Source: Rhodohalobacter mucosus (GTDB lineage: Bacteria > Bacteroidota > Rhodothermia > Balneolales > Balneolaceae). From it: 64,000 bases of DNA. Positions 10,710 to 17,642 of the stretch are shown piece after piece. The translations under genes and the position numbers were made by a program. Each line of letters begins with the position of its first letter. Positions within the stretch are counted from its first letter, which is position 1. The stretch is taken from positions 310,001-374,000 of the forward strand of contig NZ_QGGB01000003.1 of NCBI RefSeq assembly GCF_003150675.1. Reading direction: 5' to 3'. Under the pieces are notes generated by a model. That model was not told the origin of the DNA, made no database searches, and saw only the letters and a program-made list of their open reading frames with translations.

Positions 10710-12068
10710 TTATAAGAATAGAGCGATCAAAAGGCAGAGCAGCAATCCACTCACCGATATAATGGCAGTCATGACCGACCACGATTTCAGCGTTTCCTTT
10801 TCACTCATTCCAAAGTAACGATTCACAAGCCAAAAACCGCTGTCGTTAACGTGCGAAAATGTTGTAGCACCCGCAGCAATGGCCAGAACCAATAGGGCCT
10901 TGAATGGTTCTCCATATGCAAATCCGGATAGAATGGGAGACACAATTCCTGCTGCAGTAATCATGGCCACCGTAGCCGATCCCTGTGTTAATCGCACAGC
11001 GGCCGCAATCAGCCACGCAAGTAACATTACAGGAAGCCCAAGATCCTGCATCGTGGCTGCCAGCATGTCGCCCACACCGCTGTCAATCAAGACCTGCTTA
11101 AATACCCCGCCTGCACCCGTAATCAGGATAATGATACCGGCCGGCTTCATAGACTCCATGGTAATTTTTGAGAGCTGTTCTTTAGCCGTCCCCCTTTTTA
11201 TCCCAAGCCAATACAGTGCAATCAGCACAGCTATGGTCAGTGCAATAAACGGATGGCCGATAAACATGACCAGATCGGTTAGTATACTGCTTTGCACGGT
11301 ACCCTGATCTACCAGCGTTTGTGTAAGTGTGTTTGCCAGGATTAGCAATAGTGGCACAGATATAATGGCCAGAAGCAGGCTGAAAGGGGGAAGGGAATCT
11401 GAATCGCTCTCCTCAGATAGTTCCTGCTTGATGTAGTCCGGAACACGCACGTCAATTTTTTTACCGATATAGTTTCCAAACAGCGGTCCGGCAACGACGG
11501 CTGTGGGGAACCCCACGATAAAGCCGAAAAAAATGACCCACCCCAGATCAGCTCCGATAATATCTGCAACGGCAATGGGACCGGGGGTGGGCGGTATGAA
11601 TGTATGCGTGACTGCCAGCCCGGTCAGAAGGGGTATGCCATAGTAAAGGAGAGATTTACCCGTATCCCGGCCCAATGCGTAAATCAGCGGTACAAGAATG
11701 ATAAACGCAACATCAAAAAAAACAGGTATTGCTACAAAGAAACCTGTAATCATCATCGCCCAGGATGCATTTTGGCGGCCAAAACCCTTCAGCATTTTCC
11801 GTGCTACGGCTTCTGCGCCGCCCGAATGCTCCAGTATCTGACCAAAGATGGCACCAAGACCTACTACGGTTGCTACAAATCCCAGCGTGCCTCCCATGCC
11901 CTGCTGAATACTATCGATTACTGTTGAGGGGGGCATGCCTGCAGCTAATCCGGTACATACACTTGCAATAAGCAGAGAAATGAAGGCATTCAGCTTTACA
12001 CGAATCACCAGGTAGAGCAGCAACACTATACCGATTAACGGTGCGATTATCAGCTGTATATCAATCAT
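10710..12068 (-). CDS. gntP: Gluconate permease, GntP family
   Basis: A 452-residue hydrophobic protein with about 12-14 membrane segments, a gluconate:proton symporter of the GntP family. Diagnostic stretches are GQILEHSGGAEAVA, TFIPPTPGPIAVA, GGVFKQVLIDSGVG and TTFSHVNDSGFWLVNRYF, all strongly conserved in GntP/GntT. It brings gluconate into the cytoplasm for phosphorylation by the gluconokinase encoded upstream in the same set. Its start overlaps the stop of gnd by 4 bases, so the two are translationally coupled. No GntR-type repressor gene is next to the cluster. Confidence 0.93.
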   Translation of the reverse strand: MIDIQLIIAPLIGIVLLLYLVIRVKLNAFISLLIASVCTGLAAGMPPSTVIDSIQQGMGGTLGFVATVVGLGAIFGQILEHSGGAEAVARKMLKGFGRQNASWAMMITGFFVAIPVFFDVAFIILVPLIYALGRDTGKSLLYYGIPLLTGLAVTHTFIPPTPGPIAVADIIGADLGWVIFFGFIVGFPTAVVAGPLFGNYIGKKIDVRVPDYIKQELSEESDSDSLPPFSLLLAIISVPLLLILANTLTQTLVDQGTVQSSILTDLVMFIGHPFIALTIAVLIALYWLGIKRGTAKEQLSKITMESMKPAGIIILITGAGGVFKQVLIDSGVGDMLAATMQDLGLPVMLLAWLIAAAVRLTQGSATVAMITAAGIVSPILSGFAYGEPFKALLVLAIAAGATTFSHVNDSGFWLVNRYFGMSEKETLKSWSVMTAIISVSGLLLCLLIALFL

Positions 12069-13549
12069 AGAGAGTTTTCAGGTTCGTCATCAGTGTTGTC
12101 TGACAGATCCTGTTTATTCCAGTTTGAGTGATAATGTGTGCCGTCCGGATCATTTATCACCCTGAATCCGTGTGAGCCGAAATAGTCGCGCTGTGCCTGG
12201 ATCAGATTTGCCGGAAGATATGCAGATCGTAATGCATCATATTGCTGCAACGAGGCCGCCATTGCAGGCACGTGTATACCGCTTTTGATAGCGAGCGTAA
12301 CGGTTTCTCTCCAGCCTTCCTGCAATTTTCTGAAACGGTTTGAATAAATGGGAGATAAAAGAAGATGATTAAAATTGCTTCCTTGTCCGTAGGCTGCAAC
12401 GATGGTTCTGAGCAGCTCAGAGCGTATAATACAGCCGCCTTGCCAGATCCTGGCAATTTCTGAAGGGTCAATAGTCCATTTATAATGCCGGGAGGCTTCT
12501 GTAAGCAGGTAAAAACCTTCTGCAGCCGCGATCATACGCGATGCAAGGTAAGCCTGCTCAAGATGCTGCAGAGCGTTTTCTGTATTTCTGAGAAGGCCTG
12601 ACGATGAATTGGGTTCGGGACCGAACAGTGAGCCTGATAGCCGCCCTCGTAAACCGGTGAGCGCAGAGAGGGACCGGGAATCAACAGAAGCAGAAACTAC
12701 AGGAAGCTGTATTCCAAGCTCCGAAGCTGCTTGCACAGTCCACCGGCCGGTACCTTTTTGTTCGGCACTGTCAAGTATCTGATCAAGCAGAAGCACTCCG
12801 CTATCATCCCTTACCTGCAGAATATCGGCAGAGATAGAAAGCAGATAACTGCCAAGGGATGTATAGTTCCATTGCCGGAACTTCGCTGAAATATCAGAGG
12901 GATGCATTTTGAAAAGAGTCCGCATGATATGATATACTTCTGCAAGAATTTGCATATCAGCATACTCGATGCCGTTGTGAACCATTTTTACAAAGTGACC
13001 TGCACCGTCGCTTCCTGCAAGCAAACAGCATGGCGTATCGTCAAATGATCTGGCAGCTATGGGTTCAAGAATCTTTTCAAGGGATTTCCAGCATTTTTTT
13101 GTCGTGCCTGCCATAATGGATGGGCCATACCTTGCGCCCTCAGATCCACCGGATATGCCTACACCTGCGTAATTTATTCTTTTAAAACGCAGGGAAGCAG
13201 CCCTTCGGCGCGTCTCCTCAAAATGAGAGTTACCGCAATCAACCAGCGTATCCCAGTCATCGAGGTGGGGCAGAACAGATGATATAAAGTCATCCACAGG
13301 TTTACCCGATGTAATTGTAATCAATATGGTTCTGGGTTTCTGAATGGATGCCACAAACTCCTTTAAATCGGCTGAGGGGGTGAAGCGTTTTCCTGCTCCG
13401 TGTTCTTTCATGAATGAGGCGATCAGATTCTCGCCTTCTCCCTCAGTCCGGTTACTGACCGAGACGTTGTGTCCATGCGATTCAAAATTCAGGGCAAGGT
13501 TGCTGCCCATCAGCCCGAGGCCGTAGATCCCAATATCTGACTGGCTCAT
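12065..13549 (-). CDS. gnd: 6-phosphogluconate dehydrogenase, decarboxylating
   Basis: Oxidises 6-phosphogluconate to ribulose 5-phosphate and CO2 with NADP(H). The Rossmann fingerprint GIYGLGLMGSNLA is at the N-terminus; the substrate segment ISGGSEGARYGPSIM and the catalytic-lysine region GAGHFVKMVHNGIEYADMQ follow; the GTGRWTVQAA and RDYFGSHGFRV signatures lie later. I set the start at the ATG at 13549 (494 residues). The frame extends to 13618, but the added 23 residues precede a normal MSQSDIGIYG start and match nothing. It sits between gntK (75 bases) and gntP (4-base overlap). Several conserved positions are altered relative to enteric Gnd, but catalytic residues are kept. Confidence 0.94.
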   Translation of the reverse strand: MSQSDIGIYGLGLMGSNLALNFESHGHNVSVSNRTEGEGENLIASFMKEHGAGKRFTPSADLKEFVASIQKPRTILITITSGKPVDDFISSVLPHLDDWDTLVDCGNSHFEETRRRAASLRFKRINYAGVGISGGSEGARYGPSIMAGTTKKCWKSLEKILEPIAARSFDDTPCCLLAGSDGAGHFVKMVHNGIEYADMQILAEVYHIMRTLFKMHPSDISAKFRQWNYTSLGSYLLSISADILQVRDDSGVLLLDQILDSAEQKGTGRWTVQAASELGIQLPVVSASVDSRSLSALTGLRGRLSGSLFGPEPNSSSGLLRNTENALQHLEQAYLASRMIAAAEGFYLLTEASRHYKWTIDPSEIARIWQGGCIIRSELLRTIVAAYGQGSNFNHLLLSPIYSNRFRKLQEGWRETVTLAIKSGIHVPAMAASLQQYDALRSAYLPANLIQAQRDYFGSHGFRVINDPDGTHYHSNWNKQDLSDNTDDEPENSL

Positions 13550-13624
13550 AGAGAGTATTTTATTTTTTGTACCGGATATAGCTACCGAATCAATCTGATT
13601 AATGCAAGGATGAACCACAACGGG

Positions 13625-14104
13625 TCATAGTTTCATTAGAATCCGGGAGACAATCTGATCAGGTGGTGCAGATATTGAAACGGTGAGTGCTTCTGGTGGT
13701 TCCTCGAGGGCTGAAAACTGCGAATCGAGGAGTGAGGGGGGCATATAGTGGTTCCGTCTCTTCTGTAAGCGATCCAAAATTTCCTTTCTGGTACCCTTCA
13801 GATAGATAAATTGAACACGTTCAGGATTTTCTGCGGCTAAGATATTTCGATATGATTGTTTAAGGGCGGAGCAGGCCAGTACAGCTCCGTTATCTTTGTT
13901 CCATACCCTGATCTGTTCAGCGAGTGCTTCCAGCCAGGGTTGTCTGTCTGAATCAGTGAGGGGAATACCCTCCTTCATTTTCTTCACATTTTGTGCGGGA
14001 TGGTAGTTGTCTGCATCATAAAAGGGTATGCCCAGCTTTTCTGCGAGCAGAGTTCCGACAGTCGTTTTGCCGCAGCCCGAAACACCCATTACGATATACA
14101 CCAT
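13625..14104 (-). CDS. gntK: Gluconokinase
   Basis: A 159-residue P-loop kinase that makes 6-phosphogluconate from gluconate and ATP. Walker A GVSGCGKT is at residues 7-14, with the family stretch FYDADNYHPAQNVKKMKEGIPLTDxDRQPWL after it, and CSALKQSYR and HYMPPSLLDSQ further on. All are near-invariant in GntK. It lies 5 bases after the CorC-like gene and 75 bases before gnd. Together gntP-gntK-gnd form a complete route from external gluconate to the pentose phosphate pathway. Confidence 0.95.
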   Translation of the reverse strand: MVYIVMGVSGCGKTTVGTLLAEKLGIPFYDADNYHPAQNVKKMKEGIPLTDSDRQPWLEALAEQIRVWNKDNGAVLACSALKQSYRNILAAENPERVQFIYLKGTRKEILDRLQKRRNHYMPPSLLDSQFSALEEPPEALTVSISAPPDQIVSRILMKL

Positions 14105-14109
14105 ACAGC

Positions 14110-15195
14110 TTATTCCTCATCTTTATTATCCGTTTTGGTCTGCATATCATCAGGGAGCGGCAGGCCAAGACGTTTTGCTCTTTCCCTCCATTTCTGACGG
14201 GCAAGTTTTTGCATATCATCAATGGCATCGGCTTCGTCAACAATTTCCATTCCCAAAAGTGTTTCAACCACATCCTCCATGGTTACCACACCCGAAAAGC
14301 CACCGTATTCGTCCACGACGGCCGCGATGTGCTCCTGAGATTCAAGCAGCTGTTCAAGCAGATGTTTAATGGAGTTTGTCTCGGGCACGAAGATGATCTT
14401 TCGCTTGAGTCCGCTGAGCGGTATGTCACCCTTTCCCTGGGAGAGGTTGAGATAGAGGTCATTTTTAAGCACGTACCCTGTGATATCCTCATCATTTTTC
14501 CCAAAGACCGGGATCCTCGACACGGTGAGATCTATATCCCTTGAAAGTATTGAAGAGACATGCTCTGCTTCCGGGAACCTGATCACGACGATTCGGGGCG
14601 TCATGATATCCTTAACCCTGAGTGAATTGAACCGAATCAGATTTTTAAAAATGTTGGACTCTTCCTCCTCAAATATACCCTCCTGGTATCCGAGTTCAGC
14701 CATAGCGCTGATCTCCTCCCGGCTGATAAGCGCATCACTGTGATTGCCTGCAATAACACGGGTGATGCCTTTTGACAACATTACGAATGGGTATGTAAGT
14801 GTGATAAGGGGACCCGTAACCCAGGCGGCAAAGCCAGAAAGTTTTTTCCAGTAGGTTGCTCCAATGGTTTTTGGGATAATCTCCGAGAATACCAGTATCA
14901 GAAGCGTCAATACGATGGACGTAACGGTTACATAGGCATTGCCAAATACAAGCTGAGCCTGTGCACCCACACCAGCTGCGCCAATGGTATGTGCAATGGT
15001 GTTAAGGCTTAAGATGGCAGCAAGCGGCTGATCAATATTTGCCTTCAGTTTCTGGAGTTTTATCGCTGATTTATGATTCTGCTGATCAAGCAGCTGAATG
15101 TATGAAGGTGTAATCGATAGCAACACCGCTTCCAATATGGAACAGAGAAACGAGACCCCGATTGCTAGCGCAAGGTATAAAAGAAGTAATTCCAT
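14110..15195 (-). CDS. CNNM/CorC/TlyC-family membrane protein with CBS pair
   Basis: A 361-residue protein. The N-terminal DUF21/CNNM domain has about four hydrophobic segments (1-170) with the IIPKTIGATYW motif. A paired CBS domain follows at about 195-315: DIMTPRIVVIR, IPVFGKNDEDITGYVLKNDL and VVDEYGGFSGVVTMEDVVETLLG. Family members are linked to Mg2+/Co2+ efflux, and the CBS pair probably senses a nucleotide. The usual C-terminal CorC_HlyC domain is missing; the protein ends in a charged 45-residue tail. It is the first gene of the gluconate set, 5 bases before gntK, with no obvious functional link. Confidence 0.88.
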   Translation of the reverse strand: MELLLLYLALAIGVSFLCSILEAVLLSITPSYIQLLDQQNHKSAIKLQKLKANIDQPLAAILSLNTIAHTIGAAGVGAQAQLVFGNAYVTVTSIVLTLLILVFSEIIPKTIGATYWKKLSGFAAWVTGPLITLTYPFVMLSKGITRVIAGNHSDALISREEISAMAELGYQEGIFEEEESNIFKNLIRFNSLRVKDIMTPRIVVIRFPEAEHVSSILSRDIDLTVSRIPVFGKNDEDITGYVLKNDLYLNLSQGKGDIPLSGLKRKIIFVPETNSIKHLLEQLLESQEHIAAVVDEYGGFSGVVTMEDVVETLLGMEIVDEADAIDDMQKLARQKWRERAKRLGLPLPDDMQTKTDNKDEE

Positions 15196-15300: not shown

Positions 15301-16053
15301 TCAATCACTGTTCAAAAGGTCCAATACCTGTTTTTTGTACGTTCTGCTGATTGGCAGATCTATGTTGTTTACATGTACTTCACTTGAAGAGTATCTTTCG
15401 ATGCAGTCACGGTTAACAATGAATGAACGGTGAATGCGAATAAAGCTGTACGGCAGGGATTCATCAAGATCAGAAATATTTTTTCTTGTAGTTACCACTC
15501 TGTCCCGGGTATGTATCTTTACATAGTCACCAAAACTTTCCAGATAAAGTATCTCTTTTAGTAACAGATGCTCGAAATTTCTGTTCGATCGAACCGTGAT
15601 GGAACCTTCTTCAAGCTGTGCAACGTTTTTTTCGAGTTTTGAAATTTTTGAATCACTGCGCTGAATGCGCAGATACAACAGGATGAATGCTTTAAGTAAA
15701 ACCAGGACATACACTGCAATGAAGAGAACAAAAATATTGCTCATCAGCGGGTTTAAGCTCCCGTAGTTATAATTTGCTATGACAATGAAAGCAATAGTGA
15801 TTACAATCATCTGCAAGAGGAGGGATATCACAATGGTGTAGAGCAGATAGACAGTAAACCTGATGATTCGACGCTGAAACAGGTATGAAGGCACCAGGTA
15901 GTAGTTGAAGAAATAGGAAGTACCCATGGCAACCGGAAGCAGAAAAGAGACAAAGTAAAAAGCTTGGCCATAGTTCTGATATGTCCGTCCAAACCCGGCA
16001 ACAAGCAGGAGTACTGAAAATATCCAAAAGAGTATGTGATAATGTACCGGCAT
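15301..16053 (-). CDS. Membrane-anchored LytTR-domain transcription regulator
   Basis: A 250-residue protein with four hydrophobic segments in residues 1-130, a short coiled coil (about 132-148, SDSKISKLEKNVAQLEEG) and a C-terminal LytTR DNA-binding domain (about 150-248) with LLKEILYLESFGDYVKIHT and SFIRIHRSFIVNRDCIE. No receiver domain is present, so it is not a classical response regulator; the membrane part probably senses the signal and holds the DNA-binding domain at the inner membrane. It is divergent from a short MotA/ExbB-like gene with 142 bases between the starts, a layout that suggests control of that gene or itself. Confidence 0.85.
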   Translation of the reverse strand: MPVHYHILFWIFSVLLLVAGFGRTYQNYGQAFYFVSFLLPVAMGTSYFFNYYLVPSYLFQRRIIRFTVYLLYTIVISLLLQMIVITIAFIVIANYNYGSLNPLMSNIFVLFIAVYVLVLLKAFILLYLRIQRSDSKISKLEKNVAQLEEGSITVRSNRNFEHLLLKEILYLESFGDYVKIHTRDRVVTTRKNISDLDESLPYSFIRIHRSFIVNRDCIERYSSSEVHVNNIDLPISRTYKKQVLDLLNSD

Positions 16054-16056
16054 CTT

Positions 16057-16108
16057 TTTATCGTGAAAATCGCAAACAGCCCCTCAAAAATCAGACTTTA
16101 TCGGTGAA
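16057..16108. promoter_or_regulatory. Imperfect direct repeat between LytTR gene and MotA-like gene
   Basis: TTTATCGTGAA at 16057-16067 and TTTATCGGTGAA at 16097-16108 are the same word with one inserted base, 40 bases apart in the divergent intergenic region. LytTR proteins bind pairs of short direct repeats, usually closer together, so a role as operator is only a guess. The first copy sits 4 bases upstream of the LytTR start codon. Confidence 0.25.
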
Positions 16109-16195
16109 TGACAGTTTAAATGCCCGATTCAGCATTGTATACGATACACGTGATCAGGTAGATTTTACAGAACCATAAATTAAGCTATCAATACA

Positions 16196-16570
16196 ATGAT
16201 TCAATTATTTAATGCAGGCGGACCAGTTTTCATGGGAATCATGACACTAATTCTGCTTTTTTGCTTTATTCTTGCCGTGATGTCTTTTTTCATGTACAGA
16301 AGAGGAGATGAAAAAAAATCAGATCAATTTTCAGGACTTCTTAAAGAGGCCGGGTTGCTGGCACTTGTAGTTGGGGCACTCGGCCAATTCCTCGGTTTAT
16401 ACGAGGCTTTTTCTGCCATCGAACAGATGGGGCAGGTTTCTCAGGCAATGCTTATGGGAGGGTTGAAAGTTTCATCCATCACAACGATATATGGATTTAT
16501 CATCCTTGTGATATCCTATGTTATGAAAATCGGACTCGATTTAATCAGGGTAAATCACGTTGAAGCTTGA
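16196..16570 (+). CDS. Short MotA/TolQ/ExbB-like membrane protein
   Basis: A 124-residue protein with about three hydrophobic segments (8-35, 50-75 and 95-117). The middle and end, LLKEAGLLALVVGALGQFLGLYEAF and GGLKVSSITTIYGFIILVIS, resemble the pore helices of MotA/TolQ/ExbB proton channels, which are normally over 200 residues. The large cytoplasmic loop and the first channel helix are reduced. No ExbD/TolR/MotB partner gene is adjacent. Its neighbour is the divergent membrane LytTR regulator. It could be a minimal ion channel subunit or a signalling partner. The family assignment is by pattern only. Confidence 0.65.
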   Translation: MIQLFNAGGPVFMGIMTLILLFCFILAVMSFFMYRRGDEKKSDQFSGLLKEAGLLALVVGALGQFLGLYEAFSAIEQMGQVSQAMLMGGLKVSSITTIYGFIILVISYVMKIGLDLIRVNHVEA

Positions 16571-16880: not shown

Positions 16881-17642
16881 ATGACTCAATTGCGCGCTAT
16901 TTTTAAACTCTGCATGCTCTTTTTGTACACGGTAGCTGCCTATTCAGTGTACTTCATTTGGTACCTGTTTTTGAAACTTTTCCGAAAACCTGTTGAGCCC
17001 TGGCGAAACATCCTTTTGAAATACTGGAGCCGAGGCATATGTGCAATATTGAATATGAAGATGCGCGTTGAGGGCAAAGCACCGCAAGCACCGTTCGTGG
17101 TCGTATCCAATCATGTAAGCTATCTGGACGTAGTTCCCCTTTACGGCGTACTTGATTGTACATTCATCGCCAAAAAAGAGATAAGATCCTGGCCTCTCAT
17201 CGGCTTTATGGCTAAAACACTGGGTGTCATTTTTATCGACAGGGCGCGGAGAAGTGATGTAAACAGGGTTAACAGGGAGCAGATGGAGAACCTGAACGAG
17301 CACCAGGGAATACTCATATTCCCTGAGGGTACGACATCCGACGGTTCAAGGATTTTGCGGCTTCGGTCACCATTGCTCCAAACTGCAATCGATACAGGCC
17401 TTCCGGTGCACGTAGTTACCCTCTATTATGAAACAGCCGATTCTGACATTGCTGCTACGGATTCAATTTGCTGGCACGGGGACATTTCGCTGGGCCGACA
17501 TGCACTACGGATGGCTAAAACAACCCGAATAGATTGTGTTATAACAATTAATGATGAACCCGTAGAGGGGTTAGACCGTAAAGTGCTTGTTGAAAATCTC
17601 CAGAAAAAAATGCGCGGCCAGTTTAAACCTATGAAAGCCTGA
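16881..17642 (+). CDS. plsC: 1-acyl-sn-glycerol-3-phosphate acyltransferase
   Basis: A 253-residue membrane-associated acyltransferase that makes phosphatidic acid from lysophosphatidic acid. The catalytic block NHVSYLD (residues 77-83, the NHx4D motif) and the glycerophosphate-binding FPEGTT (147-152) are both present, with FIAKKEIRSWPLIGFMA and IFIDR between them as in the family. A hydrophobic N-terminal segment (about 10-32) anchors it to the inner membrane. It stands alone between two spacers of about 310 bases. Some homologues acylate ornithine lipids instead, which cannot be excluded. Confidence 0.92.
   Translation: MTQLRAIFKLCMLFLYTVAAYSVYFIWYLFLKLFRKPVEPWRNILLKYWSRGICAILNMKMRVEGKAPQAPFVVVSNHVSYLDVVPLYGVLDCTFIAKKEIRSWPLIGFMAKTLGVIFIDRARRSDVNRVNREQMENLNEHQGILIFPEGTTSDGSRILRLRSPLLQTAIDTGLPVHVVTLYYETADSDIAATDSICWHGDISLGRHALRMAKTTRIDCVITINDEPVEGLDRKVLVENLQKKMRGQFKPMKA

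Follow-up and report, generated by a model that had tools for sequence, protein, structure and literature searches.

Two genes lie head to head in a 64,000-nucleotide stretch of DNA from Rhodohalobacter mucosus (contig NZ_QGGB01000003.1, positions 310,001 to 374,000), which as a whole is called the window here. One encodes a LytTR transcription regulator with four transmembrane (TM) helices, and the other a short orphan protein of the MotA/TolQ/ExbB family, for which we use the name MOT. An earlier note, made from the sequence alone, had proposed that the two form a membrane sensing unit. The pair and a conserved site in the intergenic region between its genes point to an undescribed membrane-response switch. 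The features, in window coordinates and with the basis of each, are as follows.

15301-16053, minus strand: 4-TM LytTR transcription regulator, 250 aa (open reading frame, Pfam, hydropathy, AlphaFold model)
16098-16143, plus strand: conserved regulatory site in the shared intergenic region (position weight matrix; R1 and R2 profiles)
16135-16165, plus strand: candidate Bacteroidota-type MOT promoter, −33 TTG at 16135-16137 and −7 TAGATTT at 16159-16165 (sequence)
16196-16570, plus strand: MOT, 124 aa (open reading frame, PF01618, hydropathy, AlphaFold model)

The LytTR regulator and MOT

The regulator consists of four N-terminal TM helices, a linker helix and a LytTR DNA-binding domain. Four hydropathic segments precede the LytTR domain, which matched PF04397 at residues 163-247 with 69.1 bits against a cut-off of 22.6. 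This was the sole Pfam match at E <= 1; no receiver domain was found at that threshold, and the protein does not classify as a response regulator. In the AlphaFold model (pLDDT 90), residues 3-148 are modelled as helices, four of them long, which are followed by a LytTR fold as in 3d6w and AgrA; the matches in a fold search with this model were confined to the LytTR half. The regulator thus carries four TM helices and a LytTR domain in one chain, as does HigX of Caulobacter (see Discussion), and the architecture described in the earlier note was confirmed.

MOT has three hydropathic segments, corresponding to three TM helices, lacks a large cytoplasmic domain and is about half as long as ExbB or TolQ. 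It scored 34.3 bits against the Pfam family MotA_ExbB (PF01618; cut-off 22.9), and the family was matched at E <= 0.01 by all 77 members of an alignment that includes the window copy. All 124 residues of the AlphaFold model (pLDDT 90) align to TolQ/ExbB chains. The best alignment (Z 13.2, rmsd 3.3; 15-16% identity to TolQ/ExbB) skips part of the TolQ/ExbB length, placing model residues 1-124 onto chain residues 6-205, and a Z of 13 is borderline for helical proteins according to the structure tool's own note. The top 10 structures by Z were all TolQ/ExbB, in agreement with the sequence profile; a Foldseek search likewise returned TolQ/ExbB in its first 18 rows with probabilities of 0.99-1.00, the best E-value being just 0.03. 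From the profile match and the model alignment, MOT is a PF01618 member with a predicted ExbB fold. A ZorAB chain ranked eleventh among the structures (Z 11.8), and Zorya defence was rejected as an identity for MOT: the ZorA score was 17.3 bits against 700 in NCBIfam and 12.3 bits (E 0.013) in PADLOC, ZorB not having been searched for. Other defence identities were rejected in the same two collections.

Seven residues (G8, M13, G60, Q64, G89, S93 and G100) are invariant among the 77 aligned members, which include all 10 proteins from loci with no adjacent regulator (orphan MOTs, below), and position 91 is Lys or Arg in all 77. In TolQ and ExbB, a Glu in TM3, which is functional, and a Thr in TM2 are conserved polar pore residues. 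By profile alignment, the position of the TolQ TM3 Glu is V92 in MOT and is Val, Ile or Thr in 77/77 members, and that of the TM2 Thr is Q64, a Gln in every one; the TM3 Thr position corresponds to T97, which is Thr or Ser in 72/77. ExbD (PF02472) was encoded in each of 22 MOT-bearing genomes searched. None of the 22 has it near MOT, the nearest copy on the same contig lying about 19 kb away (G018); the MOT contig is 4-9 kb long in four of these genomes, and MotB-type partners were not searched for. Judged by sequence, MOT does not appear to be a motor protein, as no ExbD/TolR-type partner is encoded with it and the polar pore residues are replaced. The earlier description of a 124-residue MotA/ExbB-like protein with neither a cytoplasmic loop nor ExbD nearby was therefore accurate, and its suggestion that the regulator senses proton flow found no support at the pore positions.

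Conservation of the pair in Bacteroidota

Loci were collected from 58 nearest genomes (short MOT at E <= 2.4e-11), 394 genomes of the phylum (short MOT above 55 bits) and 84,980 species genomes (best 80 of 125 loci). They were picked by similarity to MOT alone, so that near relatives are over-represented. Among the 58 nearest genomes, 17 have a short MOT, 40 matched by longer ExbB-like frames alone, and one gave no match. A divergent LytTR gene was present at 16 of the 17 loci; the remaining one is cut off within MOT by the end of its contig. The gap between the genes was 139-155 bp in 15 cases and 181 bp in one with a late-called start; among the 16 regulators there is one with a broken frame and one truncated by a contig end. 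Given a divergent LytTR gene in 16/17 and a near-constant gap, the arrangement is far beyond chance. In genome G018 (L002/L182), the regulator is broken by a frame change and MOT and the intergenic site are intact.

Short MOTs were found in 28 of the 394 phylum genomes. In the best 80 of 125 loci from the species genomes, 78 records carry names of Bacteroidota or Balneolales groups, one is named just 'bacterium' and one Thalassobius; this last contig (L091), filed under an uncultured Thalassobius metagenome-assembled genome, has a typical Bacteroidota pair and site and is probably misbinned. The record names include Balneolales, Cytophagales, Bacteroidales, Saprospiraceae and Flavobacteriales (strains of Rhodohalobacter, Fulvivirga and Reichenbachiella among them), with 35-57% MOT identity to the window copy. 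Of the two findings that the earlier note had named as fatal to its proposal, a missing neighbourhood and a model unlike the MotA/ExbB pore, neither was encountered: the neighbourhood is conserved across Bacteroidota, and the MOT model resembles ExbB/TolQ.

Merging loci with identical last 90 residues and excluding MOT frames of 220 aa or more left 105 distinct short-MOT loci. At 75 of these the neighbour is a divergent 4-TM LytTR gene, which supports a two-gene membrane unit; 69 are of the standard type and six are diverged, the latter assigned by hydropathy (four segments in five, three in L095). The class of 75 includes three broken or truncated regulators (L002, L113, L119). A related 4-TM LytS-type kinase is the neighbour at 16 loci, adjacent in 13 and within about 3 kb in three, and the kinases linked to MOT scored 55-125 bits against the TM profile of the regulator. 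The kinase domain was confirmed by Pfam in both of those checked (L097, L131), the other 14 being assigned by TM match, frame length and a LytTR neighbour where seen. Three were assigned from the wider locus: in L050, the second MOT copy of G193, the kinase-type gene is about 3.0 kb off, in L053 it is 1.9 kb off, and in L057 it overlaps an over-long MOT frame. The remaining loci comprise one PadR operon, 10 with no adjacent regulator and three at contig ends (L012, L017, L074). The survey scan covered divergent regulators; at 15 inspected of the 17 loci initially without one, no same-strand LytTR neighbour was seen.

The reverse survey of the 394 genomes gave a similar picture among the matches listed, to about E 8e-22. 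A divergent short partner was present beside 15 of the 16 full-length 4-TM LytTR matches, and MOT lay within about 2.1 kb of all 10 kinase-type TM matches. Three partners were weak, with 43 bits (G271) and 39 bits (G141) to the MOT profile and, in G144, no score but recognition by eye. Regulators without MOT were those of G370 (match to residues 20-247) and G032 (match to 47-248 only).

The regulator cluster accounts for 88 loci; every other flanking family was confined to 10 loci or fewer. The window acyltransferase (16881-17642) and the CNNM/CBS gene (14110-15195) were not counted as parts of the system. Further off, 10710-14104 on the minus strand is a likely gluconate operon: it has 6-phosphogluconate dehydrogenase and what by eye is a permease, and a small kinase in it that matches SKI is probably a gluconokinase.

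The 10 orphan loci lie in genomes of which six (1.3-2.0 Mb, completeness not given) have no match to the regulator profile at E 1e-5. Their MOTs retain the invariant residues, which therefore serve something beyond an adjacent regulator. Seven orphans come from marine records of Schleiferiaceae/Cryomorphaceae type (L107, L116, L118, L120, L124, L132, L134) and keep a conserved position: where the flanks are covered, an OmpA-like gene (by eye) lies on one side and a conserved gene of 525-537 aa on the other; six of these seven genomes lack a regulator-profile match at E <= 1e-5. Three other arrangements were observed. In L145 (G193:C8:237500-247500), a MacB/FtsX-type ABC permease (Pfam) stands between two short MOTs; a gene of the 4-TM kinase type and one for a LytTR response regulator are next to them. 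In L147 (G120:C140, 3343-4858), a short MOT, a PadR regulator and a 257-aa protein that matches nothing in Pfam appear to form an operon; PadR is an unrelated kind of regulator to find next to MOT. In the kinase-type loci L054 and L057, an MscS-type channel-like gene (by eye) follows MOT.

A conserved site overlapping the predicted MOT promoter

Alignment of the intergenic regions of the first 16 loci revealed shared blocks, with the consensus TCGAtgAA..ACAGGTTT...GGATTC.ACCTTG. A weight matrix built from 51 LytTR loci, the window excluded, reads t.gTCGAtgAA..aCaggTTT...a..GGATtc.ACcTTGc. The score at each locus was compared with those of 20 dinucleotide shuffles of its own sequence; the window site, its locus held out, scored 25.0 against at most −13.1 in shuffles of its upstream sequence. 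The site exceeded its own shuffles in 50 of 51 leave-one-out tests and in all 18 held-out loci (16 Balneolales genomes plus L061 and L113, from records labelled Flavobacteriales and Cryomorphaceae), that is, at 68 of 69 standard 4-TM LytTR loci, and its score was above 15 at 64 of them. In 53 of these 64, it starts within 5 bp of position −101 from the MOT start. Outside the 4-TM LytTR and kinase-type loci, none of the remaining 14 loci, including all 10 orphans, had a site above its shuffles. A third upstream box in Balneolota, noticed by eye, was dropped because its spacing is inexact.

The C cores of the window site are at 16112 and 16133. In 66/66 loci this pair of Cs is unchanged at a distance of 21 bp, which is the known spacing of LytTR half-sites. 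The MOT promoter appears to lie partly within the site. Bacteroidota promoters have a −33/−7 consensus and geometry of their own, and in the window a TTG inside the site and the TAGATTT downstream are 24 bp apart, start to start. Of 66 loci, 45 have TAnnTTT at 23-24 bp downstream of the TTG, one has it elsewhere, and 20 lack an exact copy at that distance. This spacing argues that the site overlaps the promoter and that its TTG is likely the −33 element, past which the site reaches by about 30 bp. Two DNA profiles were then available for genome searches, the sequence-only R1 from 29 MOT promoters and R2 from 59. With R1, the window site (16084-16167) was the best match in the host genome (E 7e-11), and it was also best with R2, ranks that are partly by construction since the window locus is among the training sequences of both. 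The presence of the site at 68/69 standard loci and 0/10 orphans supports the earlier suggestion that the regulator controls the channel-like gene; taken by itself, control of the MOT promoter by the LytTR protein is, on these sequence patterns, very probable.

Further sites and a probable hydrolase regulon

No hydrolase promoter was in the training set of either profile. The second R1 match in the host genome was C5:38872 (E 5e-6; the third was 0.03). The gene that comes after it encodes a 491-aa protein whose N-terminus is hydrophobic and which contains a PF03403 (PAF-acetylhydrolase II) domain. Among the 58 relatives, the other off-locus R1 matches below 1e-4 were just those of G022 (1e-10) and G027 (5e-7), both before a PF03403 hydrolase. 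In the 394 phylum genomes, R2 gave four off-locus matches below 1e-4, of which three (in the host genome, G000, and in G352 and G140) precede a PF03403 hydrolase; G352 and G140 belong to a distant family and have the kinase-type system. Outside the host genome, site-preceded PF03403 hydrolases thus occur in four genomes, two of the same genus and two of the distant family. G004 and G015 carry the hydrolase gene inside the MOT operon, and in G011 it follows a PF00144 serine hydrolase gene in that operon. PF00144-like genes come after MOT in six loci (L032, L056, L058, L062, L102, L112) and after the site-preceded PF03403 hydrolase in G022; PF00144 was confirmed by Pfam for four, L112 and those of G011, G352 and G018. 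The PF03403 hydrolase family is present in six of the 394 genomes, five of them with a short MOT (28/394 overall; Fisher 7e-6, the genomes not being independent). G009 has a distant hydrolase and no short MOT. We conclude that the regulator probably serves at least one further target family; the conservation of the pair, the site, the promoter geometry and the second target is established by computation.

The fourth R2 match (L161 in G155, E 4.7e-5) is before a secreted protein resembling a CAP/SCP lipoprotein, and a box-like site in G167 (L162, 1.6e-4) precedes a similar protein (by eye). These two sites are possibly real; they are near noise, because hits from 2e-4 also appear in genomes that have no short-MOT match. 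Four such genomes (G181, G248, G263, G220) of family f29, probably Flavobacteriaceae, contain weak box-like sites, TCGACGAAATACATG in L164 for instance, which are perhaps sites of other LytTR regulators.

Discussion

On balance, we think it probable that the pair is a membrane-embedded one-component switch for a small envelope regulon with MOT at its core. The 4-TM LytTR protein would remain in the inner membrane, where its four helices may sense some membrane change, and its LytTR domain would bind the two-core site in the head-to-head intergenic region, over the −33 element. Binding would control MOT transcription, most likely by activation, and perhaps that of the regulator's own gene too. 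In some genomes, the regulator may also control the PF00144 serine hydrolase and the membrane-anchored PF03403 PAF-acetylhydrolase-like hydrolase. MOT would be the constant output, a minimal ExbB/TolQ-fold protein that is probably oligomeric and acts without ExbD, and the hydrolases would be optional envelope-modifying outputs. Some lineages would carry the same 4-TM sensor on a LytS-type histidine kinase that works with a LytTR response regulator. We infer in this scheme the binding, the sign of regulation, the signal, and the oligomeric state and activity of MOT. That MOT is an effector is suggested by Q64 and S93, which are kept in 77/77 of an alignment that holds all 10 orphans. The alternative considered in the earlier note, that the regulator senses a property of MOT such as proton flow, fits less well with the persistence of MOT without an adjacent regulator at 10 loci and with a probable further target family.

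Several observations weigh against the switch. That the regulator activates rather than represses is guessed from the position of the site in the sequence. At five of the 69 standard loci the site scores no higher than 15, and it exceeded its shuffles at 8 of 13 kinase-type loci, failing to do so at the other five, and at one of six diverged 4-TM LytTR loci. At a lag of 21 bp the half-sites show no significant self-similarity (z 0.8, exceeded at lags 11, 18 and 19), and for this reason we dropped the 21-bp direct repeat by total self-similarity and retained the invariant C at both cores; the term two-core site rests on these Cs and on the known LytTR geometry. LytTR-domain matches are present elsewhere in four of the 10 orphan genomes, so a distant regulator is possible there. 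The hydrolase family was found in just five of the 28 MOT genomes of the phylum sample; G118 has the hydrolase without a short MOT, no site being visible there either, and G027 (57% complete) has a site-preceded hydrolase yet no short MOT.

The strongest rival ties MOT to the 4-TM sensor itself, as its membrane partner or its inhibitor; the regulator would then drive production of its own brake, and the true outputs would be the hydrolases. ToxS, the membrane partner of the regulator ToxR, would be an analogous case. MOT is the usual companion of the 4-TM module whether this carries a LytTR domain or a kinase, and the MOTs of G144, G141 and G271, which by eye have lost otherwise invariant residues, are still beside diverged 4-TM LytTR proteins (31-39 bits to the TM profile). 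Small inhibitor membrane proteins (HdrM, BrsM) together with direct repeats just upstream of the −35 element also mark the LytTR Regulatory Systems (PMC6193735). This explanation has to accommodate the 10 of 105 MOT loci that have neither an adjacent regulator nor a site, six of them in genomes without a regulator-profile match, as well as the retention of the invariant residues in the orphans. Furthermore, most MOT genomes have no visible hydrolase target, which would leave an inhibited regulator without any other known output. Co-evolution of MOT with the TM domain over the DNA-binding domain was not supported: the MOT distance matrix tracks the former no better than the latter (r 0.636 vs 0.653 over 66 pairs; bootstrap difference −0.066 to 0.031). 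We regard the partner or inhibitor role as possible, and the less probable course.

If MOT were instead a stator or proton channel of the ExbB/MotA type that uses the proton motive force and borrows a distant ExbD, with the regulator setting its dose, its fold, its PF01618 membership and the ExbD encoded elsewhere in 22/22 genomes tested would be accounted for. The lack of ExbD within about 19 kb on the available contigs of those genomes, the replaced Glu and TM2 Thr and the missing cytoplasmic domain make this improbable. It is more doubtful still that the genes are adjacent for no functional reason, or that the site is the MOT core promoter and no more. Divergent neighbours can persist passively in close relatives, but the pair spans records from Balneolales to Flavobacteriales at low MOT identity, and the site extends well past −33, was not found at loci that lack the regulator, and occurs again ahead of an unlinked hydrolase gene; these observations largely contradict a chance neighbourhood.

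No description of a LytTR/ExbB-like pair was found in the literature searched, subscription papers being mostly outside its scope. To that extent the earlier statement that no such system is described stands for the pair; two known systems are close in concept. In the LytTR Regulatory Systems (HdrRM, BrsRM), LytTR regulators are kept inactive by small membrane proteins, and the −35 element is immediately preceded by repeats (PMC6193735). They resemble the present system in joining a LytTR regulator that works without phosphorylation to a small membrane protein, with a regulatory sequence at or directly upstream of −35/−33. There, however, the regulator is upstream of the inhibitor in one operon, whereas the genes of the window and its relatives are divergent. 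Of the five Streptococcus mutans membrane proteins, four have DUF3021 or DUF2154 (PMC6193735), whereas MOT is an ExbB-fold protein. In addition, the window regulator, unlike those of these systems, itself has four TM helices. HigX shares the order of four N-terminal TM helices and a LytTR domain, and its TM part is required for regulation; the word ExbB does not occur in the portion of that paper available (PMC13384398). Transmembrane regulators are enriched in Bacteroidota, some with partner proteins (PMC10269533).

The LytS-type kinase (PF06580) and LytTR response regulator pairs of Bacteroidota are related through the 4-TM N-terminal module that the MOT-linked kinases share; in the window, by contrast, the module and the LytTR domain are joined directly in one protein, which leaves no phosphorelay. 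With ExbB, TolQ and MotA (PF01618), MOT has in common a three-helix core, the family match and the full-length alignment of its model, and differs in its half length, the missing cytoplasmic domain and ExbD-type neighbour, the replaced pore Glu and Thr, and the divergent regulator. Ton-system orthologues without ExbD have already been noted in Gram-positive bacteria in a review (PMC9389320).

We tentatively propose that an ExbD-less, minimal ExbB-fold protein has been recruited into signalling and membrane homeostasis, and that together with a membrane LytTR regulator, or a kinase sharing its 4-TM sensor, it may constitute a phylum-wide stress switch of Bacteroidota with its own DNA site and an envelope-hydrolase regulon. 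It is rare for the partner, the site or the target of a membrane-bound transcription factor to be known, and here there are candidates for all three, conserved in the phylum. MOT represents a branch of the ExbB family that seemingly works without ExbD and with altered pore residues, which bears on the roles of the ExbB fold beyond driving motors. If the proposal is right, the family name 'proton channel' would be misleading for the MOT branch.
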